This document shows, piece after piece, positions 20,474-64,000 of a stretch of 64,000 nt of DNA. This DNA comes from Polytrichum commune (Eukaryota; Streptophyta; Polytrichopsida; Polytrichales; Polytrichaceae), in the NCBI GenBank assembly GCA_950295325.1, contig OX485804.1:1798001-1862000 (forward strand), in the 5' to 3' direction. The notes beneath the pieces were generated by a model. It searched no databases. It was not told the DNA's origin and saw nothing but the letters and a program-made list of their open reading frames with translations. Position 1 is the first letter of the stretch; the number at the start of each line of letters is the position of its first letter. The position numbers and the translations under genes were made by a program.

Positions 20474-21389
20474 AACACTATATTCGTTAATCGGAGACTT
20501 TGGAAAGTCTCAAAATCAAATTCACCCATAGTTTGGGATGCCAATATTGTGAGCATACATTATAATGGGAACATTGGGAAAATGATAGTTCATAAGTTTG
20601 TACGCAAAGAATATTCACATTACTAAATATAGTAATTTTAAATATCGTGATCAAAACATGAACTTCACATGGAAAATAACAATCAAATCTCCCAAAAAAT
20701 GGTTTTATGTCATTATAGAGTCTAGGATGCGCATCCCATATGGAAAGGTCTTATTGAATTAGATGGCATATCCCAAACTTATTTAAAATAAGTTTGAATG
20801 CAGCCGCAATACAACCAAGTCTATACAATGCCCCTATTTTCACACTAATTCCAACCTATGTTATGTCCACCGAAAGATGTATCCACAAACACACCCACCA
20901 CGATTGTCCCGTCAATATTGTCAGCCGATCGGGAAGAGAGTTCACATTCATTATCTAAAGACGATGCATATGTCGACAACACAAAGGCACTATCTACTAC
21001 ATCCACTACCATCACACCTAAAAAACAACCATGAATGGACAACCGCATAACCGATGCTATGCAAATAAGAGTGGACACACTATATGTGAGTATATATGAC
21101 CTACAATACATACATTTTCCAACTAAAGAGACAATAATGACTAGCAAACCAAAGACACGCTCGCATTGTGGACATTAAAAAGTAGGTGTTGGGATACCAT
21201 TGGAGAACCTCATAAATAAACACGAACATGTGTTCCAAAACAATCCATGGTCAGGTGTAAATAATCCTTATTTTTCCATTCCAATAAACATGGGCATCAC
21301 ATGGTGTTATTTATTATCTTTAGAAGGCGTTGAAATGATTTGTTAAGTAACCATGGACATGGTTCTACATCAATACAAGACATGATTTT

Positions 21390-22440: not shown

Positions 22441-22494
22441 CTATGTTTGAACCAATACTACAAATGCATTGATTTGTGATTTGTGATTTATATT

Positions 22495-22946
22495 TGTACC
22501 ATAGGTTGGTTGAAGGCTTGAAGCTTTGAAACATTGGATCTGGATTCGGTTTGCGAAAACCACCTTTGACCAAAAACGTTAGCTAGTCATAAGGACCCGA
22601 AAACTCCACTATAGGTTGTAGAAGGTTACAAATGCCAGCTCTAAGCTTATATTATGGAAACAACATCTAAAAGTTGGCCATTCAGACAAAAAACGCGAGC
22701 TCGTAGGTAGTGTCCAAGACATATTTTTTAGCCTTAAACGGAAGTTTAAGGCGATCATACGTCAAAGGAGTTTTCTAGAGATGCACTAGGTTAGGAGGTG
22801 TTTTTGCAAGGCTTGGAAATGACTAGCAACAAAAGAGTTAATGTAGCAAGGAAGGACTGCAAACACCCATTAACAATGAGCTTTCATATATACGTACTAT
22901 GCAGCATTTCGTTGCTACGCAGAAGTTTACGAAAATGTGGGCCGAT
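22495..22946 (+). repeat. left outer arm of 6-kb inverted repeat
   Basis: About 450 bp, starting TGTACCATA-GTTGGTTGAAG and continuing through GGATCTGGATTCGGTTTGCG, CCGAAAACTCCACTATAGG and GCAAGGAAGGACTGCAAACA, is repeated inverted at 28140-28580. It includes a small stem, GCCTTAAAC-GGAA-GTTTAAGGC, whose arms are kept in the right arm while the loop differs. No gene. Confidence 0.85.
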
Positions 22947-24044
22947 GTTTACGAACGCCCGTTCGTAAATGTGCATCGAGGTTTACGAACGCCCGTTCGT
23001 AAATGTGGGCTGAGGTTTACGAACGCCCGTTCGTAAATGTGGGCTGAGGTTTACGAACGCACGTTCGTAACTGTGCAACACTTGGTTGCTGCGCAGAAGC
23101 TTACGAAAATGTGGGCCGATGTTTACGAACGCCCGTTCGTAAATGTGCATCGAGGTTTACGAACGCCCGTTCGTAAATGTGCATCGAGGTTTACGAACGC
23201 CCGTTCGTAAATGTGCATCGAGGTTTACGAACGCCCGTTCGTAAATGTGCATCGAGGTTTACGAACGCCCGTTCGTAAATGTGCATCGAGGTTTACGAAC
23301 GCCCGTTCGTAAATGTGCATCGAGGTTTACGAACGCCCGTTCGTAAATGTGGGCTGAGGTTTACGAACGCACGTTCGTAACTGTGCAACACTTGGTTGCT
23401 GCGCAGAAGCTTACGAAAATGTGGGCCGATGTTTACGAACGCCCGTTCGTAAATGTGGGCCAAGGTTTACGAACGCCCGTTCGTAAATGTGGGCCAAGGT
23501 TTACGAACGCCCGTTCGTAAATGTGCGCCGATGTTTACAAACGCACGTTCGTAACTGTGCAGCATTTGGTTGCTGCAAAGAAGTGTACGAAAATGTGGGC
23601 CGAGGTTTACGAACGCCCGTTCGTAAATGTGCGTTGACGTTTACGAACGCACGTTCGTAACTATGCAGCACTTGGTTGCTGCGCAAAAGTGTACGAAAAT
23701 GTGGGCCGAGGTTTACGAACGCCCGTTCGTAAATGTGCGCTGACGTTTACGAACGCACGTTCGTAACTATGCAGCACTTGGTTGCTGCGCAAAAGTGTAC
23801 GAAAATGTGGGCCGAGGTTTACGAACGCCCGTTCGTAAATGTGCGCTGACGTTTACGAACGCACGTTCGTAAATGTGCGCTGACGTTTACGAACGCACGT
23901 TCGTAACTATGCAGCACATGGTTGCTGCGCATAAGTGTACGAAAATGTGGGCCGAGGTTTGCGAACGCCCGTTCGTAAATGTGGCCGAGGTTTACAAACG
24001 CCCGTTCGTAAATGTGGTGGAGATTTACGAACGCCCGTTTGTAA
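22947..24044 (+). repeat. palindrome satellite array, left (about 26 units)
   Basis: The unit is a 22-bp near-perfect palindrome with 10-bp arms TTTACGAACG and CGTTCGTAAA around a variable 2-bp centre (CC, CA). Units are joined by 8-10 bp spacers (ATGTGCATCGAGG, ATGTGGGCTGAGG). Every two to eight units the array is broken by a spacer containing GCAGCACTTGGTTGCTGC, itself a hairpin. Open frames reading RTGVRK or YERPFVN on either strand are artefacts of this array. Confidence 0.95.
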
Positions 24045-27000
24045 ACCTCCGGAATACGCAGCGGTATATGCGGTGGATATACGTTGTACGTACATGAAGT
24101 GTGTAGTGTGGACGCATAGAAATGTGATATGCGCGCACTCCTTCAAGTCTCTAGAGCAGTCTCTAGAGCATGCCGCAAAAAAAAACTATGGTGTGGGGGG
24201 GAAGACCTTTAAGTACTGCTCTAGGGCGATTCAAAATCCCTTGGATGCTCTTTAAAAAGCGGATTCCCGCCGCCTAGCTTAACCTAACAATATGTCATTC
24301 TATCCATGCGAAACATGTATGACGCTATGTATGGAACATGTATGGCATGCATGCAACATATTGAAAATATTAATGTCGCTCGCACACCTTACGTGTTACC
24401 AAGGCCTCAGGATAAAAACATAAATACTATAATAGTCAAATGTTATTGAAATATGATGATGCTTAACATTAAATAAATGATTTGCGACCAAGTTATGAAA
24501 TCCAAGTTTTTGGGCAATTGATACCTATATGTTACCAAGGTCTAAGTGATATATATATATATATACATATACACATACATACAATGAGGTAGGAGTGGGT
24601 CAAAATTAGTTGTGGAGGCCCCTAAAATTGTATATATTATATGATTCACATCAAAACATGTCCAGAATATGCTCACTAAGTGTGTGGACACCAATAAAAA
24701 GTCTGATTAATTTGGAATGGCTTGTAAGGTAGAGGAAGGATATGATATGAAACCATACCTAAATATAATGTAGGTCTTAATTTAAGTGCAAACCTAGATG
24801 TGAAAAGATTGAATTAATCCGGAACGTGTGGCAAGATTGAAATTAATTTGGAATGGTACATAAGGTAGAGTAAGCATATGAATTCAAAACATACCTAGGT
24901 CGAGTCACACTAATTGCATGTTTTTGCATCCTACGAGAAGTAGGTGCATAACTAAAAGTATTCATTTAAAGTTGAGTCTTAAGACATGCATGTTAGAATA
25001 AGATTAAGTATGGACTGTGTGATCAAAATGCACTCAACATTATTAAGGTGAAAGAGGAAGAATTCCAAACTTCACTTTTGACATAAACCAAAGTTGTATC
25101 TTAAATCCAATTTTGAATCTTGAAATGACAATCGGCATGATTCTCAATAGTTGTTATTAACCGGATGAAGCAATATCCAATCCAACCAACATTGGTAGAC
25201 CAGTTGGACATGCCCACATACCACAACATGGCCACATATTTTGAATATTGGTAAGATTAATAGATTTAGGGATGTAGGGTTTAGGGTTTGGGGTTAGGGT
25301 TTGTGAAAGTTGTGCATGTCCGATAGTTAATACAATAGATTACACACACAAACGATATTGACTACTCAATAGCCCATATTGCACTCACTTAATTATGTAG
25401 AATGCACATTTTATACTTGCCAAACATCTGATCACATGGCTCAAATACACTTAGTTCAAGTTGAAGTTAAAGTTCAATGCACTATACAAATGTTAGTTCA
25501 AGTTGACACATAATTATATGAATTGATGACATGTTCGAAATTGAATTTCCCTCCACCTCTACTAAAATTAAGTTCACCCCCTCCCCCCTCCCCCCTCCCC
25601 CCTCCCCCCAATCTCAAATTGTGTATTTTATGAAGCTAATAATGATTATAGGAACTAATGAACAATTTGAAAGATATTTCATTCTTGAAAACAAAATATT
25701 TCAAAACACCATATGAGCATCCTTGGGGTTGGATTCTTCATCAAATTTCTACTAAATGATGTGCATTGTTCACTACAAATTTATACTCCCTATGTACCTA
25801 ATGTTTACAAAAGAACCAAATGTATAGGGACTAATAGAATGGGGAGAAAAAATTCATTTGTTTTTATACTAAGCTATTCAAATCAATATGATAAACACCT
25901 ATACTACATATACATAATACAAGACATGAATTAAGCATGCCTTCATTACTTACAAATTTTACTTTTATTTTCATGCAAGAGAGTCATCGAACGTTTTTCC
26001 ATCCTAACAAGTATGGACAAGGTAGTCATATTATGACTTCCTCCATAATATGACGACAATTCATGTATCGTAACTTGGATGAAACTAACACATTTCAATG
26101 GTAACAAATTCCCTCCCCACCCCTATCCCATCCCATCCCAACCCATCCCAACCCATCCCAACCCATCCCATCCCATCCCAACCCATCCCATCCCATCCCA
26201 TCCCCTCCCCACACCCCATCCCACCACATCCCAACCCTTCTCACGTGGAGGAGGCCACGTAGCAACGATAGGGAAACCCTAGCGGCGTTGGCTACCTCCC
26301 CGCACCCCTTCTTCTCCTTTCATTGTCATTTGGAGCATAGAAAGGAGAAGCAGAACGCTGAGCACATGCGGAGCGGAGCTCTTGTCATTTCTTTACTCAT
26401 ATCTTTTCTTTGTTTTGTTGGCGCGCGTGTTTGAGAGTCGCAGATTTCTTTTGAGAGTTGCAAGTTTGCTAGTAGAGAGCTTGAGAGCTACAAACTTGAA
26501 AGTTGCATACACATAAGAGTTGTTGCAAGGGTTTGTATGTAACGTGCGAGGGCTTAAGAGTGTGAGGGAGGAATGACTAATGTGAGGGTGCAGTAGATTG
26601 AATTTACAATTCTGAGGTTTTCGAAGTTTTTCACTAAATGAGGAAGCACAAGTTTTGGATGTATACCAATTCAACGTGCATAGTGTAATCCTCCTGAACT
26701 CACTTCCTTCACATTTTGAAATTTTTTTCATTGTTGAATTCCATGTGTTTTTTTCCATGTATGTTGAGCTTTGGCATGTTTTGTTTGCAAGTTTCCCCAT
26801 GTTTTTCGATTTAGTGTTCTCTCACAACCTGAAACTCGATTATGTTTTCATTCGGTTGTTTCAATTTTTATCGTTCTCAAGTTTTATCTTCACTTGCAGT
26901 ATGTAAAGGCACCAATTCAAGGTTGATAGGTATCAATCACAAACCAAAAGTGGCAAGATGGAATGGACAAATCACTGATACATATCAACCACTCCATTAT

Positions 27001-27074
27001 AGACCAATGCATATTTGTATTTGTTTATATATGAATATAAGAAACATATGTACATGCGTAAATACCGGAGCATG
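24045..27074. other. central spacer of the inverted-repeat unit
   Basis: About 3 kb of single-copy DNA between the arms. It contains an AT microsatellite (24549-24570), telomere-like TTTAGGG units (25275-25303), (CCCCTC)n at 25577-25608 and (CCCATCCCAA)n at 26104-26225. A CACGTG-containing, GC-richer stretch at 26235-26400 (AACCCTAGCGGCG, a plant 5'-UTR-like string) may be a captured promoter or 5' end. The minus-strand open frame 26393-26800 shows no motif and I do not call it a gene. Confidence 0.5.
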
Positions 27075-28121
27075 TTTACGAACGGGCGTTCGTAAACTTC
27101 AGCGCAACAACCAAGTGCTGCACAGTTACGAACGTGCGTTCGTAAACGTCGGCTTACGTTTACGAACGGGCGTTCGTAAATCTCGGCCCACATTTACGAA
27201 CGTGCGTTCGTAAACCTCGGCCCACATTTTCGTAAAATTCTGCGCAGCAACCAAGTGCTGCATAGTTAGTAAATGTGCGCCGACTTTTACGAACGTGCGT
27301 TCGTAAACGTCGGCCCACATTTACGAACGTGCGTTCGTAAACCTCGGCCCACATTTTCGTAAAATTCTGCGCAGCAACCAAGTGCTGCATAGTTAGTAAA
27401 TGTGCGCCGACTTTTACGAACGTGCGTTCGTAAACGTCGGCTCACGTTTACGAACGGGCGTTCGTAAATCTCGGCCCACATTTACGAACGTGCGTTCGTA
27501 AACCTCGGCCCACATTTTCGTAAAGTTCTGCAAAGCAACCAAGTGCTGCATAGTTAGTAAATGTGCGCCGACTTTTACGAACGTGCGTTCGTAAACGTCG
27601 GCTCACGTTTACGAACGGGCGTTCGTAAATCTCGGCCCACATTTACGAACGTGCGTTCGTAAACCTCGGCCCACATTTTCGTAAAATTCTGCGCAGCAAC
27701 CAAGTGCTGCATAGTTAGTAAATGTGCGCCGACTTTTACGAACGTGCGTTCGTAAACGTCGGCTTACGTTTACGAACGGGCGTTCGTAAATCTCGGCCCA
27801 CATTTACGAACGTGCGTTCGTAAACCTCGGCCTACATTTTCGTAAAATTCTGCGCAGCAACCAATTGCTGCATAGTTAGTAAATGTGCGCCGACTTTTAC
27901 GAACGGGCGTTCGTAAACCTCGGCCCACATTTTCGTAAACTTCTGATCATCAACCAAGTGTTGCACTGTTACGAACGTGCGTTCGTAAACCTCGACGAGT
28001 ATTTACAAATGCACGTTTGTAAACCTTGGCCAACAACAAAGGTTGCATATTTACGAACATGCAATTGTGAACTTCGGCGTAATAACCAAGGGCTGCATGT
28101 TTACGAATGCACGCTCATAAA
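27075..28121 (-). repeat. palindrome satellite array, right, with 161-bp higher-order unit
   Basis: The same 22-bp palindrome is arranged in inverted orientation relative to the left array. Here a 161-bp higher-order unit (three palindromes plus the GCAGCAACCAAGTGCTGCA spacer and TAGTTAGTAAATGTGCGCCG) repeats at least four times in near-identical form (about 27230-27860), implying recent local amplification. The far right end decays into diverged units after 28000. Confidence 0.95.
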
Positions 28122-28580
28122 CCTTGGCTACATACAATGAAAATGTGCACCACCCCCCTGCTACAATAATCAATAGCGAATAGGAGTATGTGTATATGAA
28201 AGCCCATTGTTAATGGGTGTTTGCAGTCCTTCCTTGCTACATTAATTCTTTTGTTGCTAGTCATTTCCAAGCCTTGCAAAAACACCTCCCAACCTAGTGC
28301 ATCTCTAGAAAATTCCTTTGACGTATGATCGCCTTAAACTTATGTTTAAGGCTAAAAAATATGTCTTGGATGCTACCTACGAGCTCACGTTTTTGGTCTG
28401 AATGGCCAACTTTTAGATGTTGTTTCCATAATATAAGCTTAGAGCTGGCATCTCTAACCTTCTACAACCTATAGTGGAGTTTTCGGGTCCTTATGACTAG
28501 CTGACGTTTTTGGTCAAAGGTGGTTTTCGCAAACCGAATCCAGATCCAACGTTTCTAAGCTTCAACCAACATATGGTACA
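28122..28580 (-). repeat. right outer arm of 6-kb inverted repeat
   Basis: This is the reverse complement of 22495-22946 with scattered substitutions. It ends CCAACATATGGTACA. Directly outside both arms the sequences differ, so the symmetry stops here. No 8-10 bp target duplication is evident at this inner boundary, so this may be an internal part of the 10.2-kb element rather than a separate insertion. Confidence 0.85.
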
Positions 28581-29490
28581 TTTTCAATAACACCTTCAAC
28601 ACCTTTGTTTTGCCAACACTAAGGACTATGTTATCTTAGAAGGAGAGCAGTAATAGGAGAATGCCAACAATGAATCTACTCTTCAAATCCCTCTTTCAAC
28701 ACTTTGTTGCTTGTTTTCCAAGACTGTTGTCTGTCTGGACTGCCTCACATTTCTAGGTCTAAACTTACAAGCATACACACCTTCTCTAAGAGTCTAAGCT
28801 ATCTTCACATATGTGTACTAAGAGAGCCAAAAGGTTCTAGGACAATCTTTATATACCTCAAAACAACTACCTACTAGGTGGGTCAACTTGGTAGGTTACC
28901 ACCCTGTCAAAACACTGCAACTAGCTGTCCTCACGCGTTTTTGCCCTTTGTCCAATACATGACCAACTGGCATACAAAGGTCATAAAAAATGATCAACTA
29001 GTCACAGAAATGCAATGCTATTTAATAACTTTGGACCAACAAGTCATTATCTGACCAACTAAATTATTAACACCAAATAATTACTACTACTGAATAAATT
29101 GCTCAGTAGTAAAACAGTAAAAAACCAATTAGTGGACGTTTTAACAACTAATTGCATTAGGGACAAATTTGACGTCAACTAGTAAACTAACATTCTTTTG
29201 CCCTTTCGACAATTCGCGACCAACTAGTTAGTTTTTGATGGGTTGGTTTACTATGAACATTTTATGTTCTTAAAACACGGTGCTAACTTCTACCTTAACT
29301 TCTATCTTATCTATGTTTGTGCAAATAAATGAAACCACTATACATATTTGCAAACACACATTCGTAAAAATACGTAATGTTGATTTACACATTACACATT
29401 ACACTGATTTACGAACGGTTGTTCGTAAATATGCTACCAAAATCTACTTTAACAATTGAATGTGGATATACTTTATATTGTGCATAAAGT
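28581..29490. other. right arm of 10.2-kb element, no gene
   Basis: Unique AT-rich sequence with AACTAGT/CCAACTAG-like short repeats. Two isolated palindrome variants lie at 29345 and 29407, the second (TTTACGAACGG-TTGTTCGTAAA) only 60 bp before the phosphatase-like fragment. Confidence 0.4.
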
Positions 29491-29862
29491 ATGGTCTTGG
29501 AGAACACGGTGCCCATTTTCAAGTTCCTCATCTGTGATCTCCCAAGCCCTTGCCTCGTTCTCGGCCAAGAAGTATGTGATGAGCTAATTGACGAGAATGG
29601 TGTGCCAATGCCCAAGTTTGGTGGTCGAGGCGGAGGGCAACATTTCCTCAAGGTCTTGAGGTCCAGGTTGTGGCTAGAAGCCCCCCTATTGGAGGGAGTC
29701 CCCCACGGGAGCTGGCCAACTCTGGAGAACACCCTCCTCATCGACGACAACACCGCCAAGAGCCTTCTTTGTCCCCTCCTATTCTTTCACCGTTGCTCTC
29801 ATTTTCTTGCATCTGCATGTTATGCACTTTACGAGCGCCCATCCCAAACCGCCCCTCCTTAA
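29491..29862 (+). pseudogene. FCP1/CTD-phosphatase-like HAD domain fragment (captured, broken)
   Basis: The 124-codon frame carries features of the C-terminal half of plant FCP1-homology HAD phosphatases: CLVLGQEVCDELIDENG, a KFGGRGGGQHFLKVLRSRLW stretch that could supply the conserved Lys of the K-x-L-x-x-W region, and ENTLLIDDNTAKSLL, the NTLLIDD motif that binds Mg in HAD enzymes. The N-terminal half with the catalytic DxDGT motif is missing, and the usual NP..aIfP sequence after SLL is scrambled, probably by a frameshift near 29775. In another frame the sequence stays open to 30263. It lies inside the 10.2-kb transposon, so gene capture is the likely origin. The family call is from motif memory, not a search. 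Confidence 0.5.
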
Positions 29863-30640
29863 TTTACCCACTCCACTCTGTCTATGATATTGTTTCACAG
29901 GTCGTTCCACGCTCGTTTGGTGGCCGACCCTCCTTGACTTCTTCATTGGAGACGCCCACAACTCAAGGTTGCATCTTCCGAGTCCGATCGTTGTTTGGCC
30001 CTCCGGAGAAGTGCAAGACATCCTCTCTTGCAGATGCCTTTGTATTCCACTACAATACCACTTCGTATAATTCGGGAGCGCGTTTGGACATATTGAAGAA
30101 CGACACATATTCGAGGCCAGTCAACAAACTTGGCTATAGTTGCGGGCCGGAGATTTTCAAAGCTATAGAGGCCATTGGAGCATTACAGAGAGTAGCCACC
30201 GTAAAAGATAAGGACATGGCCACGAGAAAAAATATAGTGGGACGTACTAGTGGGACGTACTAGTGGGACTATAAACGCCTACGGACTCCCTAAATGTGTG
30301 TAGGGGTAGAGCATAGTGCTTGGTTATCCATTCTATTTGAAGGTCTTCAAGACATTAATGGTATTTCCATTATGTTTGTATTTCAAACCCGTTGAATAGA
30401 TTCAATTTCCAATCATTCTCCACATCTTCCTGTCCATTAGCAACAATTTGTCATTTTATACACATATGTTTTCATGTATGATTCATTTTTTTGTTCACTT
30501 TGATGCATTTATGTTGATGATTATATCCAATGTTATACATATGGTATTTTAATGTTGTTAACATTGGCTCAAATTTGAAAACCACGTCCTTGAATAGTCT
30601 CAAAATCATCAAAAAGTCTCCGATTACCGAATATAGTGTT
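29863..30640 (+). other. possible captured exon tail and right end of element
   Basis: The frame to 30263 contains IEAIGALQRVATVKDKDMAT, plausible coding sequence but not recognised. GGGACGTACTAGT is directly repeated at 30239-30266. From 30270 to 30611 I see nothing; the last 29 bp form the right TIR. Confidence 0.35.
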
Positions 30641-49689: not shown

Positions 49690-50265
49690 TGAACATAGAC
49701 TTACTAGTAGTTTATTATAATACAAAAATATGCTAATATAATATTAGATCGAGCACAAAAATGTTGGATATTATAAATGGTTGTTCACAACCAAACAACT
49801 TAACTTCTACCAAGCTCTCATAATTTGGCTTGATTCCTCCATGAGGTGAGCAAGGTTGTCTTTTGCCAATGTTCTAAACTTTTGATGGATGGACAATAAT
49901 TATCCACTATAATTTTTCCATCGTTTCCATGCTTTGAACATGGAATTTGTGTCTATCCAAGTTGGACCATGCTCAAAATCCACCCTCCGACAAAAATGGT
50001 GATTTGTATCCCAATTTGTGTAATGACACATCACATCTTCATTTTGTGTTGTTGGTCGGTATTACTCCACTTGAATCTGTTGGAAATGAAGACGAGAAGT
50101 GCAAAATTTGCTTGAGACAAAGCTCTAACCACCCAAAATGGTTTAGCATATGTCTCATCTCCAAGACGCAACACGAGCATATAACCTTCGTGACAATCCA
50201 TTACAACACGGAGAGATAGTTGGGGACGATTACTAGCGGGCCCAACGTAATGGTTGAACATTAGC
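49690..50265 (-). pseudogene. DUF7869 transposase-like gene, C-terminal relic
   Basis: The minus strand aligns with the 3' third of the gene at 53509: NHYVGPASNRPQLSLRVVM against DHYVGPASSRPPPSFRIAV, DCHEGYMLVLRLGDETYAKP against DCHEGYMLILRPGDETYAKP, then W-V-RALS-NF, and the nucleotide similarity continues through the region coding for the PSWVDTDSIFIAWKP part and into the 3' flank. Frame changes near 50080 and elsewhere break the frame, and everything N-terminal of the YVGPA block is missing, lost at about 50265. The catalytic region is therefore gone. It is the oldest-looking of the three copies and is closest to the 53509 subfamily. Confidence 0.8.
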
Positions 50266-52870: not shown

Positions 52871-53508
52871 GTTTCCAACAAATCACCACTATTTTTTGTA
52901 ACATAAGTTAACTTACCCTCCAAAAAGATCTCAACCTGATACATTTAAATACCTAACACAACAATTGAAGACAACAAACACTATATTCGTTAAATTGAGA
53001 CTTTCTCTAGTCTCAAATTAATATATGGATCAAACAACATTCCGTGTTCCGAAACTATATTGAGAATGATCTCAAATATATTATATGTTCTAATATCCCA
53101 AATCTATTATGTGTGGACATAAGCACATGTGGTAGAGCACTCAACACCAACTTCATCTACAAAAACACTTTGGGTAGAGCACTCCAAACTAGTTTCACCC
53201 AAGAAACATATAAAATGATTTCTATTATTAGCATGGTCAATAAAATATAGACATTGCAACATACAAAGTGCATGCAATAAATGCATTTTTCTTCAATGGA
53301 AAATTTAGTCCCAAACTTAATAAAAAAAATGAACTTCACAACTGTATTGAAATATAGTAAATGGATATTCATCCAACCCCAAACAATATAGCATTCGCAA
53401 GTTCTACCCAAACTTTGCCCCAAGTTTGAGGAGCACACATATGAGTAATATATATTCGTCGAATTACATATTACACTATAATCATGCTAACACAATCCTA
53501 CCAACTTC

Positions 53509-56500
53509 TCATTCAACGTGGGTTGCTTCTTCTGCGATCTGAGCAAGGTTGTCTTTTGCAAAAGTTATGTACTTTTGAGGGATGGACACTGATCCACTAT
53601 GATTTTTCCGTGGTTTCCATGCTATGAATATGGAATCTGTATCTACCCAAGATGGACCGTGCTCAGAATCCACCTTCCACCAAAAGTTAGGGTTTGTATC
53701 CCAGCCTGTATAATGCCGAACAACATCTTCATTCCATGCTGTCGGTCGGTAGTACTCTACTTGTATTTGTCGAAAATGAGGGCTGGAAGTTACAAAATTT
53801 GGTTTGGACAAAGCTCTTGCCACCCACACTGGCTTTGCATATGTCTCATCTCCAGGACGCAAAATGAGCATATAACCTTCATGACAATCCACTGCAATGC
53901 GGAAAGATGGTGGCGGACGACTACTAGCAGGCCCCACGTAATGGTCGTCCACATCAAACTCCTCTCGAACCTCTCCATTTCCCAAAAGACTAGCCTCCGA
54001 AGCTTGTACATTGACACGTGTTTGTGGCCAAAACCCATGCCTTAAAGTAAGGGGTGTATCTTGATGAAGGTTTGCCAAAGCGCCACGAACACGTGTCCAA
54101 TATTGTATCCAACTTCCGTAACGAAGCCAACATGATCCACCAACATCCGCTACCCTCAAACTCTCCCAATATTGTATGAAGCCTGATATGCCTTTACAAA
54201 TGTCCTCCAAATTCTTCATGGGTATTGGTTTGCAAGGCTTAGGCTCTCCGTCAGGCAACATCGTCCTTCCTTCTCCATCAACACGCCATACAAGGAGACC
54301 CTCCGGCGGGCTCCAGTCTTGTGATGTGCACAACAACTTGTATTGCATGGCGGGGACACCATCGTCACGCACGTAGAACCAAAATTGTTGTGCCTTCGTA
54401 TGCCCGATCAATCGGTGAGCTCCGCTTCGAATATACGGTTCTATAAATGCCTTGAAGTCTGGAACCTCCTCGATCATATGGGGGATGACGGGAATGTTCT
54501 CCAAATCCATGTACGACTTCATCAACAATGGGATTGTTGGAAAATCCTCCTCGCGCAACTTCATGCTCCACCGCCCAAAGGACGCATCAATATCATCGTG
54601 CGTATGGCCTACCAATAGAAAGGACACAAAAACCTCCTTGAAAATGCCTTTCGCAACCAACAACGACCAATATGCAAAAACATATCTACTTTTATTGTCC
54701 TTCGCACAATTGTCCAATTGGACACGCAGAGTTGGGGGCAACTTCTTGGCAATCACATCTTCACTTGGTGGCTCCGGCAATGAGTGCACGCATACATCTC
54801 TTCCATCCAAGACCGCTTCATATAGAGGTGTTGATCCCGAGTTTTCAAATAACAATCTTGATGAATAGGACGGCGGTTTCTCCAAATCACGTAAAAGCTT
54901 TGCAAATGACCCTATCGTGTGGTTTGAATCCGCCGGATACAAATCAAGAGCATAATGAGCATATTTGACATCACCATGCCCATGTGCAATCATTCCTGCA
55001 AAGGCAACCCAATGGTTTAATATTCAACTATAACACCAAAAAATTCACATGGTGTACATGTATGGCCCCAAGTACAAACCTAAACGCACAAATTTGTGTT
55101 TAGGTAATGCAATGCAATTGTTATCAAAATCACCTGTAACCGAAACAGGAAGCTTAAAAAGGCCGTCCGTGGCTTTGATTCGATTTGCAAAACATGGTGA
55201 GGCTGTTTTGGCATGGTCCATCTTGTCATGGATGATTGTAAGGACTTCCAAAGGCCTGGAGATGGACAAAGCTCTATTTGTGTAGTAATCATTACGGTGT
55301 GCCTCTTGCATGTTCACATGCTTGAAATAGTTCATTTGATGTGCGGCATAGGACTCTGTCCCCATCGTGTGTGCATCTCGAAGGCGTTTCAACTTCTCGC
55401 ATTTGGAACAACGGGCAAATTTGTCGCCTCGTCTTTTTGTGATGTATTCGCTAAAGTGAGATTTTTTGATAGCACTCAGTTTCGACAACGAAATTGGGTC
55501 CAACCCGGCCTTCTCGCCAACTGCGTTTACGTCCAACAATATGTCTTTCCATTTCGTGCCTGTAGGAAGAACCTTCTCCACAACCTTTTCACCGGTTGCG
55601 AGTGTGCGTGTTTTGTGCGGCATTGCATCGGCAAGGGGGACAATGATGGTTGCCAAAGTGGCTGTTGCTTGTCTCGTTGCTTCTCTTGGTTTCTTTAAGC
55701 CCATGTTCCTATGGTGACGGGCACGGCGGCCTTCATTGGCATACGCGGCTTGTCTATAAAATTCCGCTTTCGACACACCATGAATGGTGTACCATGCCGT
55801 ACAACACACGTCTATGCTCTCAAGGGTGATGACCTTGCGACCCGCTCCGTTCACATGTATCGCCCTATGGACATCAAGTTTTTGGTGGATCTTAGACGGA
55901 AATCTCCAAGCCACATTTCTTCACGGATGGCCTTCAATTTATCTCTTGGGAACAATTGGCAACAACGATGTACACAACAATCCTTCGTAGCAACTTCTCT
56001 AATAGACTCCTCACAGAGCAACCTTTGACGTTTACACTTATTTGCAGATGGAGTAGGACGTGTCAATGTTTCGTACTTCCGAAGGCCTTTGCGTGGCCGA
56101 ATGTTTGTTTGGAGCTCCTGTTGGATTTGGACATGTCGTCGCTCATGGTCGCGCAAGCTAACCCCCTCAATTGTCACATTCCTCAACGGCCACCTTCGCA
56201 ACGAGAACCTATGAGTTGGATTGACTTCCGAATGTACGAGTGATTCCAATATAACAACTCCAACGTCCTCGGTGCCAAGGGGGTGTTCATCAATGCAATC
56301 TTGTGGATGTGTGTTACGACAAATACCCTCCGCCACAGCAACTCCACTGTCATTAACAAGTACCACATCCAAATTCACCCATGAAGCTCGTGAAAGCCCC
56401 GCACATTCCACAATGGGGCAAAAAGGGTCAGATGGCGAAGGACTCCCCAAATGACCTTCATCTGCACTGTCATCAAAACTATCCTCCCCGACAATGTCTA

Positions 56501-56597
56501 GCTCATCCCCAGACAGAGATTGGGTGCTGCCCATGTCTTCAGAGAAGGAATCCCCTCTTCCACCAACTCCCTCCATTACGCCTACACACATGCACAT
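53509..56597 (-). CDS. DUF7869 domain protein, probable transposase (one likely frameshift)
   Basis: Exon 1 runs from about 56597 (or the internal Met of MEGVGGRGD, 56573) to 55134; an intron of 138 bp (55133-54996, GTGATT...TTTGCAG) joins VSVTG to MIAHGHGDVKYAHY in frame; exon 2 ends at the stop at 53509. Domains in order are an acidic Ser-rich N-terminus; a Cys-rich basic stretch (KDCCVHRCCQLFPRDKLKAI); a region with CSKCEKLKRLRD (possible Zn site); and the DUF7869 core with KMDHAKTASP, VQLDNCAKDN and GHTHDDIDASFGRWSMKL. The Asp residues of these three motifs are good candidates for an RNase H-like acidic triad (inference). In exon 1 the frame shifts at an A5 run on the coding strand (55879-55883), which looks like a one-base loss, so this copy is probably inactive unless it is an assembly error. 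Total length is about 850 residues. The gene sits in the transposon starting at 52977. Confidence 0.8.
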
Positions 56598-56779
56598 GAA
56601 ACCTCAACAAACATGGACACAATGTAAGGGTCCAAAAGAATCAAATATTGGAAAATGCAAAACATCACGATGAATGGGGACACTGAGGATCAAGACATTT
56701 GCAACACAAATGCAATGTGAGCTCCCAATACTGTGCGCCAGTCCACAAAATGTTCCACAAAATATTTTGGGTGGGAGTT

Positions 56780-57485
56780 TGGGTCGGCCGACCTAAACCC
56801 TGTGGCACCAGGGATTGAGGGCCATCCCCACCTTGCCCGTGGGATAGGGTCGGGTTCCGGTCGACCGACTCAAACCTTGTACAATGATGGGTTGAGGGCC
56901 ATTTAGAATTCCATCACACTGTGGGGAAAACTTTGGGTCGACCGACCCAATTCTTGTCATGGTCAACTACAACCGCCGAAACTGGGGAAGGGGTTTGGGT
57001 CGACCGACCCAAACTTTCAAAGGGTAAACCCACCCACACTCAGAAGGGGTTTGGGTCGGTCGACCCAAACTTTCACAGGGTAAGTCCACCCACACCGGGA
57101 AAGGGTTTGGGTCGGTCGACCCAAACTTTCACAGTGTAAATCCACCCACACTGGGATGAGGTTTGGGTCGCTCGACCCAAACATTACATATGATGGGATA
57201 AGGTTCCTACTCTGTCCGTCCAAACTTTCTGAGTACCTTGGGTAAGGGCCATTAACAATTCGTTCACGATGTGCGAAAAAGTTTGGGTCGACCGACCCAA
57301 ACCTTCTAAAAGGTTTTACGATAAACGCCCACAGTGGGGTAGGGGTTTGGGTCGACCGACCCAAACCTCACAAGGGTCAGAGTAGACCCCCCCCCCCCAA
57401 CACTAGTGAAGGGGTTTGGGTCGACCGACCCAAACCTCACAAGGGTCAGACTGGAACCCGCCAACACTAGTGTCGACCGACGTAT
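56780..57485 (-). repeat. palindrome array upstream of DUF7869 gene (about 11 units)
   Basis: Units spaced about 55-120 bp apart carry 9-bp arms TTTGGGTCG and CGACCCAAA around a variable 2-bp centre (AC, GT, GC). Positions include about 56785, 56850, 56934, 56996, 57050, 57107, 57164, 57284, 57347 and 57416. Spacers share GGGTAA-CCACCCACA and CACAAGGGTCAGA strings. A C-run (57388-57398) lies between two units. By analogy with subterminal repeats of CACTA elements these may bind transposon proteins; their place just upstream of the gene also allows a regulatory role. Confidence 0.85.
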
Positions 57486-58119
57486 AATACAGCGTATAAT
57501 GCGGCATATAATGCAGCGGATATTGAGAGGTGTGTGGAATTTCAGCTCATTGCAAAGTTCACTGCGGACTTGCATGCTGTGGATAGGTCCTCATGAACAG
57601 CAGCGTGAACGAACCTCGAAGTACAGCTCCGACTAAGAGTTCTCTCTACGAATTCAGGAGTGGGAGAAGAGCAAAAAAAAACCAACTTTTGGGGGGTGCG
57701 CCCCTTTATACTATCCACCTCCACTTGCCCGACTTCCTCATTGGATGCCTTTCCCGCCTTGTTATTTCAAACCTCCTGACAGAATTCCCCGTTTTCTGTT
57801 TATTGTAGAAAATGCGCATTTTTCAATGCCCCTCTCATACCCCAGCCGTCATATGATTTAGTCTATGATATTTAATCTTTTTTTGGTTTTGTGTGTATAT
57901 GACATACGACATTGGGAGGAAGGGTGGCGGCCACATTAATTTTTTCAAGTGTCACAACGGTATATTTTAACCAATATGCATACCCAACCACAACTCCATT
58001 CAATGCTTTCAAGTGCAAACCTATTTCGGTGGGGTTGGGGCCATTTGGAGGCTGCAATTATGAGAGAGTTTCCAAGGCTTGAGGCCATTGTCATGATGAA
58101 TAAAATTATTTATTTGTCT
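57486..58119. other. possible promoter side of element, then unique DNA
   Basis: A TATAATGCGGCATATAATGCAGCGGATATT stretch (57484-57522) gives weak TATA-like sites for the minus-strand gene. From 57640 to 58119 I see no gene, terminus or repeat. Confidence 0.35.
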
Positions 58120-59340
58120 CCCCTAAACCCTAAACCCTAGAACATTGCTCTATTATCTCGCATGGAAGTGTGGCAATGATAAACGTATGTAACACTATAT
58201 TCGTTAAATTCAGACTTTCTCTAGTCTCAAATTAATATATGGATCAAACAAAAACTTCTACAATGTCACCCTAATGCATCATATACATATTAAATGATGA
58301 TATTGATCTACTTTAATTCAAACATTACGGTATGGCATTAACCAATATGTAGACAAAAGAAGTCTAAACATTGTGTAACGCCTTATGGTAAGAGTCACTA
58401 AATACAATAGTTAAAGTGGTTATGAAGATCCTCGCAAGGGGAATTATTAATTTTGAAATCAAATTATGTCATGACAAAGTTCATTTATTGTTCCAAATCT
58501 GAATTTGCAACAATGCAAGTGACAAGAGCTTTTATATATAATATGTTGTCATCCCTAAACCCTAAACCCTACAATATTGTCCTCTTCTCTCGCATGCAAG
58601 TGTGGCAATGACGAATGTATGTGGACGTCGATAAGGGGATACTAACTACCAATGTGGCTTTTTAGTTCAATATTTCCATGCTAATTGAATCCATCCTCAA
58701 GTTCACTTCAAGCTTACTAATGTGTGTGAACAAAACATCCAAAGTTGAACCCTAAACCCTTATAACATCCACAACATGAAATTATACGTATTGACTAAAC
58801 CATACACCAATTAGTATATCATGTTTAGACGTTCCAAATAACATATTCACATGATCAAGATTGTGGTCACTATAACCTTCCTATTAGACTCTTCTTAATA
58901 TATAAACAACATTTCTTATATCTTTCTCCATTATCTAATATACGTGGAGGGAACAATGAACAACAACACAATTGCTTGCATGGCTTCATTTGATGTTGTG
59001 CTTAACCGATTTACGTTTATATCACATTCCATATATTAAATACATCACGAACCATAGTTTATTGGCGACTATGTGATTCATCAAAGGGAGCAAAACATCC
59101 AAAGTTAGACCCCTAAGTCCTAATAACATCCACAAAATGAAATGCTATTTGAATAAACACAAGACCAATTAGTATATCACGTTTAAACGTCCCAAATAAC
59201 AACTTAACATACTCAACATCATCTTTACTATAACCTTCCTATAAGACTCTTCTCACCAGTAAGTCAATGTTGTACGTTAATATTAGATAGATTAATATGT
59301 TATAACCATGACTCCTAAACCCTAAACCCTAAACCCCAAA
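58120..59340. repeat. tandem-repeat field with telomeric CCCTAAA motifs
   Basis: CCCTAAACCCTAAACCCT occurs at about 58122 and 58552, each followed by the same 60 bp (CATTGCTCTATTATCTCGCATG-like, AGTGTGGCAATGA). CCCTAAACCCT-type motifs recur at 58751 and 59313. A second pair of about 170-bp units (58735-58905 and 59090-59255; ACATCCAAAGTT, ACCAATTAGTATATCA, ACTATAACCTTCCTAT) and a third pair (58950-59095 and 60629-60770; ATTGGCGACTATGTGATTCATC) are also present. The field looks like an aged, partly subtelomere-like tandem array broken by insertions. Confidence 0.6.
58191..58255 (+). mobile_element. isolated DUF7869-element terminus (left-type end)
   Basis: AACACTATATTCGTTAAATTC followed by the AGACTTTCTCTAGTCTCAAATT hairpin and AATATATGGATCAAACAA is almost identical to 52977-53040 over about 60 bp and then diverges. 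It interrupts the telomeric-motif repeat exactly after GTATGT. No partner end is found, so it is either one end of a much-deleted element or a one-ended remnant. Confidence 0.65.
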
Positions 59341-59953
59341 TCTTGTAGTTGTTCAGTGCTACCTCCATATACAAACAACATCAAGTTTGTCTTGCGCCAT
59401 TATCTACACTACTTGAAAATCATGACCAAATCAACAAAAAATCAACAGAACTTTGTCGATCCGGGCACTGCAATGACCGATTTCACTGATTTTTGAATTT
59501 TTGTAAAAATCAACAGTTTACTGCCTACATTTTTGTTGATTAGAATAGTACAATGACCAAATCAACAAAATTTTAGTAAATGTGAAATCTTTTTTGAATC
59601 TTTTTGGGAATATTCTAGGATCTATTGGAATATTGTAAAATCTTTTTAATTTTTTGCAATTTATGGACTTGTAAGTGTATGGGTATGGAAATAATTACGA
59701 ATTCAAAGGTGTTTAAATATTATAAATATTATATTAGTTGATAGTTAATATTATATATGTATTAATATTAATATATTAATATGTATAATATGTATATAAT
59801 ATATGTAACATATAATATATATATGTATATATATGTATGTATGTATGTATATATATGTATGTATATATGTATATATATAATATATGTAACATATCTGTAT
59901 ATAATATATGTAACATGTATGTATATAATATATAATATATAAATATGTATACA

Positions 59954-60168
59954 TTTACAGTAAATATATACAGTATATATTTACTGTAATTATATACAGT
60001 ATATATTTACTGTAATTATATACAGTATATATTTACTGTAATTATATACAGTATATATTTACTGTAATTATATACAGTATATATTTACTGTAATTATATA
60101 CAGTATATATTTACTGTAATTATATACTGTAATTATATACTGTATATATTTACTGTAAATATATACAT
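59954..60168. repeat. 26-bp AT-rich palindromic tandem array (about 7 units)
   Basis: The unit TTATATACAG-TATATATTTACTGTAA is nearly self-complementary (TACAGTAAATATATA against TATATATTTACTGTA) and lies inside the CACTA element. A further AT/ATGT microsatellite precedes it (59750-59950); open frames of Tyr/Ile-rich sequence there are artefacts. Confidence 0.9.
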
Positions 60169-60235
60169 CAAGTAGGTAGTAAAGAGAAATTAGTGGCCTT
60201 ATTCTAGAAAGGTTTAAAACACTCCATTTATATCA

Positions 60236-60430
60236 TGTGTGATGTGATGACCTAGTGGTTAAGGCACATGTGTGGGTATCACTAGGTGCAAGGTTCGATT
60301 CCCGTGGCTGACACCTTCGGCCTTGGCCTTGCCACCTATGTGAGTGGTAGGTAGTCTATACTTGTAGGTGAGGTATATGTTGAGGTTTATTTGGGAGGGG
60401 TTAGGAATTGCAGATCTGACATTTATTCAT
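60236..60430 (+). mobile_element. tRNA-derived SINE
   Basis: A box A-like TGACCTAGTGGTTAAGG at 60247-60263, resembling the D-arm of Ser/Leu-type tRNAs, and a perfect box B GGTTCGATTCC at 60292-60302 are spaced as in an internal RNA polymerase III promoter. The downstream tRNA-unrelated part (ACCTTCGGCCTTGGCCTTGCC..., GGTAGGTAGTCTATACTTG) is about 110 bp. Pairing of the arms is too poor for a functional tRNA. The 3' boundary and TSD are unclear; the following T/A-rich tract may be its tail. It is nested in the CACTA element. Confidence 0.65.
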
Positions 60431-60616
60431 TTTTTAATTTTTAATGTTATATATATATATATATATAATAAGTTTTTTTAAAAAAATATTTTTGTGACCA
60501 TATCAACAGAAAAAATCAACAAAATTGTGTTACATCATGTTCAGGTCAACGCGTCCTAAGTAACAACCGCGACCAACGCCTTTCTGTTGATCCGGACGCA
60601 AAATTTTCTACTAGTG

Positions 60617-61248
60617 CTAATATACTTGGAGCGAACCTTCAATAACAACATGATTGCTTGAAGGGCTTCATATGATGTTGTGGTTCTCCGATTTGCTTTT
60701 ATATCACATTCCAAGTACATATATCACGATCCATGGTTTATTGGCGACTATGTGATTCATCAAAGTGAATATCTAGGGGATACTCTATAAAACTTGAGCA
60801 TGTTAGCATTTTGAAATAAAGATCATGCAATTCCAAACCCTCACAATATGCACTTGGGGAAGGTATTCATTTAGGCTCCACATTCAAATATCCTCAATTT
60901 CCGAATTTCATGTTGGGGGGTGGGGATTGTCTTTTTTATTCATTGCATATTGTGTGAGTTGTTGGCATCAATGGTAAAGTCTATTGTATTTGGCACGTAA
61001 TTGTATTTTTTTTATAACGTGCTCAAACAAACGAGAAACCAATGACTTCAACTTGTTTGGAAAATTTAGTTAATGGTGTCATGCAAGTAGGAATTAAGTA
61101 TTAGTGTTAGCATAAAGTTGCGTTGTAAAGATGTATTAGTTGTATAAATGGTTTAGTTTTTTAGAATACCTCATTTGATGTATACCTTAGGCTACTCCAA
61201 AGTCTATTCAAAATTGTACTACCCGCTAAGGGTTTACTCCTTAGAGGG
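60617..61248. other. continuation of repeat field, then unique DNA
   Basis: 60629-60770 is the right half of a repeat unit also found at 58950-59095, split from its left half by the CACTA insertion. From 60771 to 61248 I see no gene. Confidence 0.45.
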
Positions 61249-61815
61249 ATGGGAGTTAGGGTTCCCCGTAACCCTATTCCCGTTGCTGCCCTAATCACGT
61301 TGGCACCCTATTCGCGCGGTTGGGGGCCAATTCCCGAGGGTAACAAAACCCCAGCCGCCAAGCATTCTCCTCCTTTCTCTCTCTCTCTCCCGCCAACCTT
61401 TCGCTCCGCGCCTCTTGTGGAAGCGCCGCCTCTCCTGAAGCGCCGTGGCGATTCAGGGTGGCGCTTTTCTTTACATTCCTTCTCCACCCTTTTTTCTTCT
61501 CCTTCCCTCCCTTCTCTTGCTGTAGCGGGAGATTGCACTAGTGTTGCAATATATAGCATTGTTGAAGTGTTTTCCAGATTGTTGAAGGGTTTTCCAACAT
61601 TCTGTGTGAGCTTTAGGCAGTGCTTGCGAGAGTTCGAAGTGCGGATGAGTGCATGTGAGTGCTTGTGAGTGCATGTGAGTGCTTGTGAGTACATGTGAGT
61701 GCTTGTGAGTACATGTGAGTGCTTGTGAGTGCATGTGAGTGCTTGTGAGTGCATGTGAGGGCTTGTGAGTGCATGTGAGTGCTTATGAGTGCATGTGAGT
61801 GCTTGTGAGTGGTTG
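61249..61815 (+). other. GC-rich gene-5'-end-like stretch ending in a minisatellite
   Basis: A GC-richer, CT-rich stretch (61250-61520, with AGGGTTCCCCGTAACCC and CTCTCTCTCTCCCGCC) resembles a plant promoter/5' UTR and keeps an open frame of 139 codons (61249-61668) rich in Pro and Ser, but with no motif. It runs into a 10/20-bp tandem array of GTGAGTGCATGTGAGTGCTT (61645-61815). A captured gene 5' end or an old promoter is possible; I do not call a protein. Confidence 0.35.
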
Positions 61816-62033
61816 TCAGATTAGGAAGTTCTATAAGAGATACAAAAGTGATACAAAAGTGCTTTCAGAGATTTAGTTATTGTTTTGAGAGATTCAGTTG
61901 TTGTTTTAACAGACTCAGTTGTTGTTTGAGAGTTACAATTGTTGTTTGAGTGATTCTGAAGAGACTCAGGAGTTGTGTGAGAGATTGTGGGTTTATTGAG
62001 AGATTCAAGAAAGGTTTAAAATCTTTGGTAGTT

Positions 62034-64000
62034 AACACTATATTCGTTAATCGGAGACTTTTGAAAGTCTCAAAATAAAATATGCCCATAGTTTGGGATG
62101 CCAATATTGTGGGCATATGGAATGTTGGGAACATCAAGAACATGACAATTTAAAAATTCGCACGTAAAGAATATTCCTAATACTAAAAATAGAAAATTGC
62201 AATTATAATGAAAACGTGAACTCCATGTGGAAAATAACAAGCGAATATAAAAAACAAATGGTTTATGTCATTATAGAGTTTGGGGTGCGCATCCCATAAG
62301 TAAGGTTCTTATGGTTTTGGATGGCACATCCCAAACGTATACCACAATGGAGTGTGACAAGTCTACTAAGTCTATTAAAAACCAAGACTACTAAGTACTA
62401 ATGTTTTTTCCCGCCGTTAACTTTCACCTATGTTATGTTTACCCATCTCCATCTTCCGCTTCATATCCATTCTCGGCGTCATTTTCCGCAGCTGCAATAC
62501 GTGCCAAGTTGTCTTTGGCAAAATCTATATGTTTTTGGGGGATGGTCATTGCTTCTGTGTTGGAACCTTTGCGCGGCTTCCAAGCACAAAGTATAGTATC
62601 CGTGTTTATCCAAACCGGTGTGTACGCTGAGTCCACTGTCCACTTAAAATTCTTTTTGGTGTCCCAACCTAAATAAGTGCGGAGCACGTTGTGGTCTTTA
62701 GTGCTTGGACGACAATATTCCACCTCAATTTGACGAAAGTTGGGGTTAGTTCGAACAAAATTGGGTGAAGACAATGCTTTTACCAACCAAATTGGCTTGG
62801 GATGCTCCTCATCCCCAGCTCGTACGAGGACCAAATACCCTTCATGGCAATCAACACCTACACGAAACGACGGTGCCGGTCGATTGCGGGCAGGGCCAAC
62901 GTAATGCTCGTCCATTGCGAACTCTTCACGAACGTCTCCATTGCTGAAAAACATAGTATCGGACTCGACAACCGTCAAACGACTTTGTGGCCAAAATCCT
63001 TGTGTCAAAGTCGTACGGGTGTCGCCACCAAGTGTTATCAAGGCTGAGCGAATGCGATCCCAATACGCGATCAACGGTTCATGGGTATCTCTAACACGTC
63101 TTGTGATGTCCTCCTCGCACAACTCTTTCCAATATTCAATGAATCCGGATATGCCTTTGATGATTTCCGGCCCATTCCTCATGGGTTCGGGTTTGCAAGG
63201 CTTTGGTTCCCCATCCGGGACCAAACATTTCCCATCATTGTCTTGACGCCATACGAGTATACCATCATCCGGGCCCCAATTAGGAGATGTGCACAAAAGC
63301 TTGAATTGCATGGCCGGGAGACCATCGTCCCTCATATAAAATCGGAATTGTTGTGCTTTGGTATGCCCCACCAAACGGTCCCCTCCCTTCAACATGTATG
63401 GCTTGATGAAGGCCTTGAAATTTGGTACTTCCTCAATCAAGTGCGGAATTACTGGCATATGGTCCAAATCCATATACGATTTCATAAGAAGAGGTATGGT
63501 TGGAAAATCTTCTTCATGCAACTTCATGCTCCACCGTCCGAATGATGCATCAATGTCGTCGTGTGTATGTCCCACCATCAAGAAAGACACAAACACCTCC
63601 TTGAAGATTCCTTTCGCCACGAGCAATGACCAAAAACAAAATACGTATCGACATTTGTTGTCCTTCGCACAATTATCAAGTTGAACGTGGAGAGTTGGAG
63701 GCAATGGTTTTGCACAAATGGGCTCTCCGGGTGGTTCTGGCAATGACGACATACAAACCTCCTTCCCCAAAAGCACTGCCTCATAAAGGGATGTGGTTCC
63801 ACAACCATCAAAAAGTGCACGGGAAGAATGTACCGGTGGCTTCTCAAGATCGCGCAACAGTTTTGCAAATGAACCCACCGTGTGGTTAGCATCCCCAGGG
63901 TAAAAATCCAAACCATAATGGGCATACTTTACGTCCCCATGGCCGTGGGCAATCATACCTGGAAAAAACAAACGATGCGTGACCAAAATAATCAAATAAC
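62034..64000. mobile_element. DUF7869-encoding DNA transposon, second subfamily (runs off window)
   Basis: The unit starts AACACTATATTCGTTAATCG and then the perfect hairpin GAGACTTT-TG-AAAGTCTC. Its 400-bp left arm matches the left arm of the 10.2-kb element. The minus-strand gene inside is intact as far as visible. The other end lies beyond 64000, so the TSD cannot be checked (left flank AGTT). Confidence 0.75.
62439..63958 (-). CDS. DUF7869 domain protein, probable transposase, 3' exon (partial gene)
   Basis: The last exon begins at 63958 after TTTTTTCCAG and reads (G)MIAHGHGDVKYAHYGLDFYP; the acceptor is at exactly the same codon and phase as the intron in the 53509 gene. It is open for 506 codons to TAA at 62439. 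Conserved landmarks are VQLDNCAKDNKCRYVF, VGHTHDDIDASFGRWSMKL, HTKAQQFRFYMRDDG, DEHYVGPARNRPAPSFR, VDCHEGYLVLVRAGDE and IPQKHIDFAKDNLARIAA, with an acidic C-terminal tail (ENDAENGYEAEDGDG). The upstream exon with the first Asp motif lies outside the window. No stops or frameshifts are seen, so this copy could be active. It is clearly diverged from the 53509 protein, that is, a different subfamily. Confidence 0.85.

Follow-up and report, generated by a model that had tools for sequence, protein, structure and literature searches.

Is DUF7869, a domain of unknown function, the transposase of a transposon family? The question is raised by a 64-kb stretch of DNA (G000:C2:1798001-1862000, hereafter the window), in which two minus-strand DUF7869 genes lie close to sequences resembling transposon ends. 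An initial annotation of the window proposed that these genes belong to transposons with terminal inverted repeats (TIRs). We examined the proposal in the whole genome, G000 (408 Mb, 64 contigs), from which all DUF7869 data were obtained. The findings indicate that DUF7869 is very probably the cut-and-paste enzyme of large multi-gene elements in this genome. The whole explanation that we favour, and regard as likely, is that DUF7869 is the DDD (three-aspartate) transposase of large multi-gene TIR transposons with a 4-bp target-site duplication (TSD), and that palindromes inside the elements are bound by an element-encoded dimer with an anti-silencing role.

Ends, target-site duplications, and empty sites

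The DUF7869 proteins were assigned to four clades, A, A2, B, and C; when one protein per clade was aligned, identity to clade A was 63% for A2, 44% for B, and 24% for C. The four clades have three kinds of terminus, and the clade A2 members (the window elements starting at 20474 and 62034, and locus L026) share the end AACACTATATTCG with clade A. This end was found exactly in the window at 20474(+), 30628(-), 52977(+), 58191(+), and 62034(+), and six window matches with up to two mismatches were observed against 1.77 expected from shuffling. The five termini are thus present. The interval 52977-58190 is no complete element, and the site at 58191 is a 61-bp end fragment. No right end for the clade A element at 52977 was found in the window. 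The element at 62034 has its left terminus together with a DUF7869 gene, as initially described; its right end lies beyond the window and it has no TSD. The sole TSD-bounded pair inside the window is 20474-30640, and DUF7869 was not found in this element by tblastn with the gene of the reference copy described below (E up to 1e-8).

In the genome, the 17-mer AACACTATATTCGTTAA has 594 forward and 589 reverse exact copies, and its reversed control has none. The first 100 entries of the list, which cover contig C1 up to 48.0 Mb, include 18 plus/minus neighbour pairs less than 25 kb apart, of which 15 span 14.4-18.1 kb. The full-length element copies that we read are 12-25 kb in size with TIRs of about 23-28 bp. 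One clade A copy, designated E1 (C1:32031646-32047678, 16,033 bp, TIR of 28 bp), was used as the intact DUF7869 reference.

Subsequently described TSDs refer to 36 pairs across the four clades, of which 34 have a 4-bp TSD. The ends of 10 of the 15 clade A pairs of 14.4-18.1 kb were fetched and the TSD was exact in all of them; it was also present in both of two further clade A pairs, which are short deletion derivatives. In clade B, with the border set before ATGGGG, all 10 pairs showed a TSD and the match was no longer than 4 bp. The TSD was found in nine of 10 clade C pairs and in two of two further ones, and in one of the two clade A2 pairs (that at 20474 and not that at 62034). The borders defined by the TSD are AA..TT in clades A, A2, and C, and AT..AT in clade B. 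When the joined flanks of clade A insertions were searched in the genome, with 40 of 4122 candidates scored, paralogous empty sites were found for at least six of 10 insertions (E1, L005, L007, L009, L013, and L017) as junction-spanning matches of 85-99% identity. The elements therefore show the features of TIR transposons, namely bounding inverted terminal repeats, a TSD of fixed length, and intact empty sites.

Some further observations were made on the ends. The sequence GAGAC (or GAGCC) marks the inner border of the TIR, and in most of the six ends shown (from E1, the 62034 element, and clade B) it occurs again in the first 45 bp, in direct or inverted orientation; it is possibly a subterminal transposase site. 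Twelve AACACTATATTCGTTAA termini, 10 of them on the minus strand, lie inside 0.8 Mb at C1:21183774-21974313, perhaps as nested or local insertions. At C3:17877971-17894103 there are four clade C termini, and three on the same strand are spaced by exactly 5,544 bp, which suggests that the element or its target lies in a tandem array.

Position and motifs of the DUF7869 gene

The two window genes scored 144 and 138 bits with the Pfam model of the domain, PF25273. As had been reported, their 3' ends are situated 532 bp inside the terminus at 52977 and 405 bp inside that at 62034, in the same relative orientation. A genome search for DUF7869, in which 150 matches were scored out of 1491 candidates, showed this arrangement elsewhere in the genome. 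Within the C1 range of the terminus list, 10 of 14 scored genes lie no more than 4 kb from a correctly oriented clade A terminus (random mean 0.057), and eight of those 10 sit 1341-1349 bp inside it. For the clade B terminus ATGGGGATATTAACTAAAATGAG, comparison by hand placed a scored DUF7869 gene 1491-1593 bp inside nine of 12 exact left-type termini. Seven more clade B copies, picked because a right-type end was listed for them, all had a left terminus (up to one mismatch) no more than 60 bp from the place predicted by the gene. The clade C terminus AACACCGGTTTCGTTAA has 37 + 36 copies in the genome and none in the control; of the eight top-scoring DUF7869 rows, three of which were read as sequence and the others assigned to this clade by score, six lie 1622-1814 bp inside it as compared by hand. 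Hence most of the genes in the clade A range (10/14) and most of the clade C rows (6/8) do have a terminal repeat nearby, contrary to the outcome that the initial annotation had named as fatal to its proposal.

The acidic motifs noted initially, QLDNC and GHTHDDID, are present, and HDKMD was found in the first exon of the gene at 52977. Their Asp residues are invariant across the four clades in HDKMD or IDGMD, QxDNC, and GHTHxDxD, with about 40 residues between the second and the third motif. Judging from these motifs, the protein would act by an RNase H-like cut-and-paste mechanism through the Asp residues of HDKMD, QxDN, and GHTHxDxD. The intron was also confirmed: E1 has the splice junction with donor TTACAG|GTGAAC and acceptor CATTGCAG|GA, and the clade B frame passes uninterrupted, with no intron, through the same junction. 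Exon 1 of the copy at 52977 spans two frames. Between E1 and another copy, E2, the ratio of nonsynonymous to synonymous substitution rates (Ka/Ks) for exon 2 was 0.19. Taken together, the ends, the 4-bp TSD, and the fixed place and orientation of the gene in four clades bear out the proposal that DUF7869 belongs to a TIR transposon family, and the motifs are the basis on which it is called a putative RNase H-like DDD enzyme.

Relatives of DUF7869 outside this genome were not found in pattern-based scans of IMG/VR and GTDB genomes, nor in plasmids by tblastn with exon 2. A literature search found no paper naming DUF7869 or PF25273.

Genes of the right arm

In E1 and E2, DUF7869 reads toward the left end, and three open reading frames (ORF1, ORF2, and ORF3), a NIF-type phosphatase gene, and the short ORF5 read rightward. 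ORF1, ORF2, and ORF3 are probably exons of one gene. The same gene order was observed in the 62034 element, with identities of 33% for ORF1, 36% for ORF2, 30% for ORF3, and 44% for the phosphatase. Matches at 23-36% were obtained in clade B for ORF1, ORF2, and the phosphatase, and none for ORF3. The phosphatase exceeds the Pfam cut-off for PF03031 in clades A (2.1e-15), A2 (2e-16), and B (2.6e-11). The right arm of clade C contains an ORF1 relative, detected by hmmsearch among 991 ORFs with an E value of 4.5e-6; the next best was a control sequence with 0.38. It is located in L054/L055 (C7:2065544-2077540) at 8378-8863 of the reversed element. Neither ORF2 nor the phosphatase was detected in the clade C element read, and the elements of this clade may be built more simply. 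An ORF1 relative is accordingly present in all four clades and the phosphatase in three.

Signs of purifying selection were observed on the comparable element genes. Between E1 and E2, Ka/Ks was 0.09 for the phosphatase and 0.26 for ORF5; for ORF1-3, Ka was 0.12-0.15 and Ks was above 2 or saturated. A genome search for the phosphatase (150 matches scored out of 1242 candidates) showed that at least 30 of the best 76 rows have a divergent scored DUF7869 gene within 22 kb, against 0.26 at random. This is a lower bound, because one locus outside the 30 holds DUF7869 at 97% identity. Five pairings among the best 76 rows have another order. Fifteen of the phosphatase rows share 100% identity across 234 aa, indicating recent spread.

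No Pfam match over the cut-off was obtained for ORF1 and ORF2 of clades A, A2, and B, and those of clade A gave nothing significant in NCBIfam or PHROGs. The best PDB profile match of ORF1 was Cas1, with a non-significant E value of 0.044. By eye, ORF1-3 appeared to contain ParB and methyltransferase motifs; this hunch arose from DGQHS and from FNVFGGSK, which we took to be like a C-terminal SAM motif, and it stays no more than a hunch, as searches of Pfam, NCBIfam, PHROGs, and PDB profiles returned nothing significant.

Clade-specific palindromes

Each element carries many copies of a 20-bp palindrome in which two arms of 9 bp flank a spacer of 2 bp (9-NN-9). Counts within elements allow up to two mismatches, and genome-wide counts are exact. 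The clade A palindrome TTTGGGTCG-NN-CGACCCAAA has 32 copies in E1, 41 in E2, and nine in the copy at 52977; the A2 palindrome TTACGAACG-NN-CGTTCGTAA has 28 copies in the 62034 element and 51 in the 20474 element; the clade B palindrome CCACGGGTG-NN-CACCCGTGG has 21 copies; and the clade C palindrome GGTGAGGCA-NN-TGCCTCACC has 28, in most of which the second arm is altered at one or two positions. When the palindromes were counted in six elements of the four clades, all 18 off-diagonal cells of the cross-table were 0. In the window outside 20474-30640 and up to 52976 (42.8 kb), no palindromes were found.

Genome-wide, there are 9731 exact palindromes of clade A, 3737 of A2, and 819 of B, with reversed controls of 0; GGTGAGGCANNTGCCYCACC gave 245 + 263 strand matches and a control of 0. 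Of the first 100 clade A sites in the list, 81 are situated on the inward side of an exact terminus and no more than 18.1 kb from it, whereas 4.2 are expected at random. The information content in clades A, A2, and B is 1.81-1.96 bits in the arms, in contrast to 0.14-0.58 bits in the flanks 6-30 bp away. In A and A2 the spacer varies freely, with 0.35-0.49 bits, and in B it does so less (1.0 bits). Clusters are found in the regions preceding DUF7869 and ORF1 and in the stretches that separate ORF1, ORF2, and ORF3; in E1, two of 33 palindromes fall in coding sequence, which was approximated by hand and covers 51% of the element.

The evidence that palindromes are required in cis is mixed. Four short clade C elements (2.6-4.4 kb, each with a TSD) retain 9, 21, 16, and 22 palindromes, whereas short clade A derivatives, discussed below, have none (0/2). 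The phosphatase was also considered as the reader of the palindromes; this idea is weakened by the clade C element read, in which palindromes but no phosphatase were detected.

Features of the window

The features located in the window are listed in Table 1.

Table 1 Features of the 64-kb window (positions counted from its first nucleotide).
Feature	Position	Strand	Remarks
Non-autonomous clade A2 element	20474..30640		10,167 bp; TIR at both ends; TSD ACAT at 20470-20473 and 30641-30644
A2 palindrome TTACGAACG-NN-CGTTCGTAA, 51 copies (up to 2 mismatches)	21832..29428		Inside the 20474 element; 5 distinct flank contexts
NIF-type phosphatase gene fragment	about 29488-29796		In the 20474 element
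DUF7869 C-terminal remnant	49822..50255	-	55-73% identity to E1; not part of the only TSD-bounded element in the window
Clade A element, left terminus AACACTATATTCGTTAAATTGAGACTTT	52977..53004	+	28-bp TIR length taken from E1
DUF7869 gene exon 2, stop codon included	53509..54995	-	QLDNC and GHTHDDID (second and third Asp motifs); 92% identity to the intact E1 copy
DUF7869 intron, GT..AG	54996..55133	-	Junction same as in E1
DUF7869 gene exon 1, start codon uncertain	55134..56576	-	HDKMD (first Asp motif); frame broken in this copy (about 55851-55920)
Clade A palindrome TTTGGGTCG-NN-CGACCCAAA, 9 copies	56778..57434		Directly upstream of the DUF7869 start in the 52977 copy
Clade A left-terminus fragment, 61 bp	58191..58251	+	98% identity to 52977-53037
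Clade A2 element, left part	62034..64000	+	Continues to G000:C2:1876108; 16,075 bp in total
DUF7869 gene exon 2, clade A2	62439..63959	-	65% identity to the 53509 exon

The terminus fragment at 58191 adjoins one copy (58114-58190) of a direct repeat that contains the telomere-like CCTAAACCCTAAACCCTA; the other copy (58546-58622) has no such fragment. An A+T-rich 13-bp unit forms an array at 59895-60219, readable also as nested inverted repeats. A tandem array of a 10-bp unit (GAGTGCATGT / GAGTGCTTGT type) occupies 61608-61847, just ahead of the terminus at 62034.

Discussion

In the mechanism that we propose, DUF7869 would cut and join the DNA, its motif order being like that of an RNase H core with no large insertion. 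The palindromes are predicted to be sites for an element-encoded homodimer, either DUF7869 or the ORF1-3 protein, these being the more likely readers because all four clades have DUF7869 and ORF1, whereas the phosphatase was found in three. Such a dimer would act sequence-specifically on the element's own copies. By analogy with VANC of the VANDAL elements in Arabidopsis, its most likely role would be to keep promoters and introns accessible, that is, anti-silencing. The proposal would give DUF7869 a concrete job, with ends, TSD, and a gene map that can be tested. The palindromes of four clades in one genome would be a natural experiment on how selfish DNA recognises its own copies, and the phosphatase and ORF1-3, under signs of purifying selection, represent unexplained transposon functions.

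Several observations weigh against this explanation. The expected terminus is missing for four of the 14 DUF7869 genes in the clade A range, one of which (C1:33993299) has a 692-aa frame typical of clade B, and for two of the eight clade C rows; likewise, three of the 12 clade B termini have no DUF7869 gene in the expected place. The clade C copies read contain internal stops, and the clade C pair L062/L063 has no TSD. The clade B border was moved one base inward after the outer border showed no TSD, on the ground that the outermost base varies between copies. The 62034 element is flanked by AGTT and ACAT, and because these differ it has probably been rearranged. The clade C palindromes lie mostly in one tandem array, with three flank contexts, their arms are imperfect in most copies, and both their flanks (1.07 bits) and their spacer (1.6 bits) are conserved, as expected for a young tandem array; for these reasons their pattern could be due to tandem copying. 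No palindrome is present in two short clade A elements, internal-deletion derivatives of 3.6 and 4.8 kb with the TSDs ATGT and CACT; palindromes in cis are therefore no strict requirement, unless the deletion postdates the insertion. Finally, AlphaFold2 gave a pLDDT (predicted local distance difference test) score of 32.8 for the two window exon-2 proteins, from an alignment too shallow for use, and no solved structure in PDB matched DUF7869 by sequence or profile; for this reason we infer the RNase H fold from the order of the motifs.

The rival that survives best is that the elements are giant Sola transposons (Sola1, 2, or 3), DUF7869 being the Sola transposase renamed, with only the domain label and the cargo new; we judge the chances of this to be about even. 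According to the available excerpt of its description (PMC10741241), Sola has a DDD transposase, a 4-bp TSD, and a size of 2-9 kb, with some elements above 15 kb; its ends are very variable, with TIRs of 11-1124 bp, and it is present in the moss Physcomitrella. Compared by description only, TSD length, DDD motifs, TIR length, and size up to more than 15 kb all fit, since a 4-bp TSD was found here and DUF7869 contains motifs that can be read as DDD. The initial statement that no described superfamily has this combination is doubtful accordingly. However, neither the multi-gene divergent right arm nor the clade-specific palindromes are mentioned in that excerpt. A bolder alternative, which we put forward only tentatively, is that the elements form a superfamily of their own with an address code spread over promoters and introns, in which the element dimer reads only the palindrome of its own clade and marks the copies against silencing or for co-regulation, code and reader changing together. 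If this were true, sister clades would coexist in one genome with no cross-talk, and a VANC-like self-recognition would have been invented independently.

As to the palindromes, it is conceivable but rather unlikely that they are recognition sites of DUF7869 with an internal use in transposition or autorepression, and not in anti-silencing. DUF7869 occurs in all four clades and the clusters lie upstream of its start, as this would predict; yet the terminal repeats of the six cross-table elements contain no palindrome, and the two short TSD-bearing clade A derivatives lack them entirely. That the palindromes are a by-product of tandem satellites and bind nothing is improbable. Many copies do lie in tandem arrays, the largest groups numbering 43, 24, 18, and 12. 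Nevertheless, the arms are found again and again in different surroundings, the number of distinct flank contexts being 11 in E1, nine in E2, 20 in the 62034 element, and 13 in clade B, the spacer varies freely in A and A2, and a different sequence in each clade keeps the same 9-NN-9 format in all four.

It is decidedly improbable that DUF7869 is a passenger and that ORF1-3 is the transposase. ORF1-3 is conserved from A to A2; of its parts, ORF1 and ORF2 are shared by B, and ORF1 by C. In contrast, invariant Asp motifs in DDE/D order were seen only in DUF7869, ORF1-3 having been looked at in two alignments, and within each clade the distance of DUF7869 from one end hardly varies. Much of DUF7869 is also retained, maybe by chance, in two short derivatives whose ends are preserved. 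The weakest reading, membership in CACTA/Chapaev (CMC), which the initial annotation had named as the closest by the terminus, is very improbable: CAC occurs in the A and C termini and the TSD lies within the 2-5 bp given for the CMCT clade (PMC12730594), but two defining features fail, the termini and, unless the third acid lies far downstream, C(2)C/H(3-4)H, and no match to the Pfam family PF02992 was found.

Comparison with known systems

We return to DUF7869 as the probable transposase of large multi-gene elements and compare these with described systems beside Sola. With CACTA/Chapaev (CMC/CMCT), the elements share the TIRs, a TSD in the range of 2-5 bp, and, in clades A and C, a CAC close to the terminus. 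They differ in that their borders are AA..TT or AT..AT and not 5'-CA..TG-3', and in that DUF7869 has no C(2)C/H(3-4)H between Asp 2 and Asp 3 when the third acid is taken as the Asp of GHTHxDxD. The fungal DNA transposons with TET/JBP resemble them in carrying an extra enzyme gene beside the transposase (PMC12730594). Here, however, the passengers are a NIF-type phosphatase and an unclassified protein, and no TET/JBP was among the Pfam matches.

VANDALs are Mutator-like elements. As described for VANC (PMC5735166, PMC10398659), a short family-specific motif forms tandem arrays in introns and upstream regions and differs between related families, and the VANC protein binds its motif and removes silencing marks. 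Family-specific short repeats, mainly in non-coding parts and often in tandem, were likewise found here. On the other hand, the VANC21 motif is a non-palindromic sequence of 9 bp, YAGTATTAY (PMC5735166, PMC10398659), whereas the palindromes described here are 9-NN-9, and the TSD of Mutator-like elements is given as 7-12 bp (PMC10741241), as against 4 bp here. Among the titles listed by a literature search, none describes such a palindrome-tagged transposon system, which is weak evidence of absence. The elements thus resemble VANDAL/VANC in design and not by demonstrated homology; if the two are unrelated, a second case beside VANDAL/VANC would suggest that plant transposons have resorted to sequence-specific self-recognition repeatedly.

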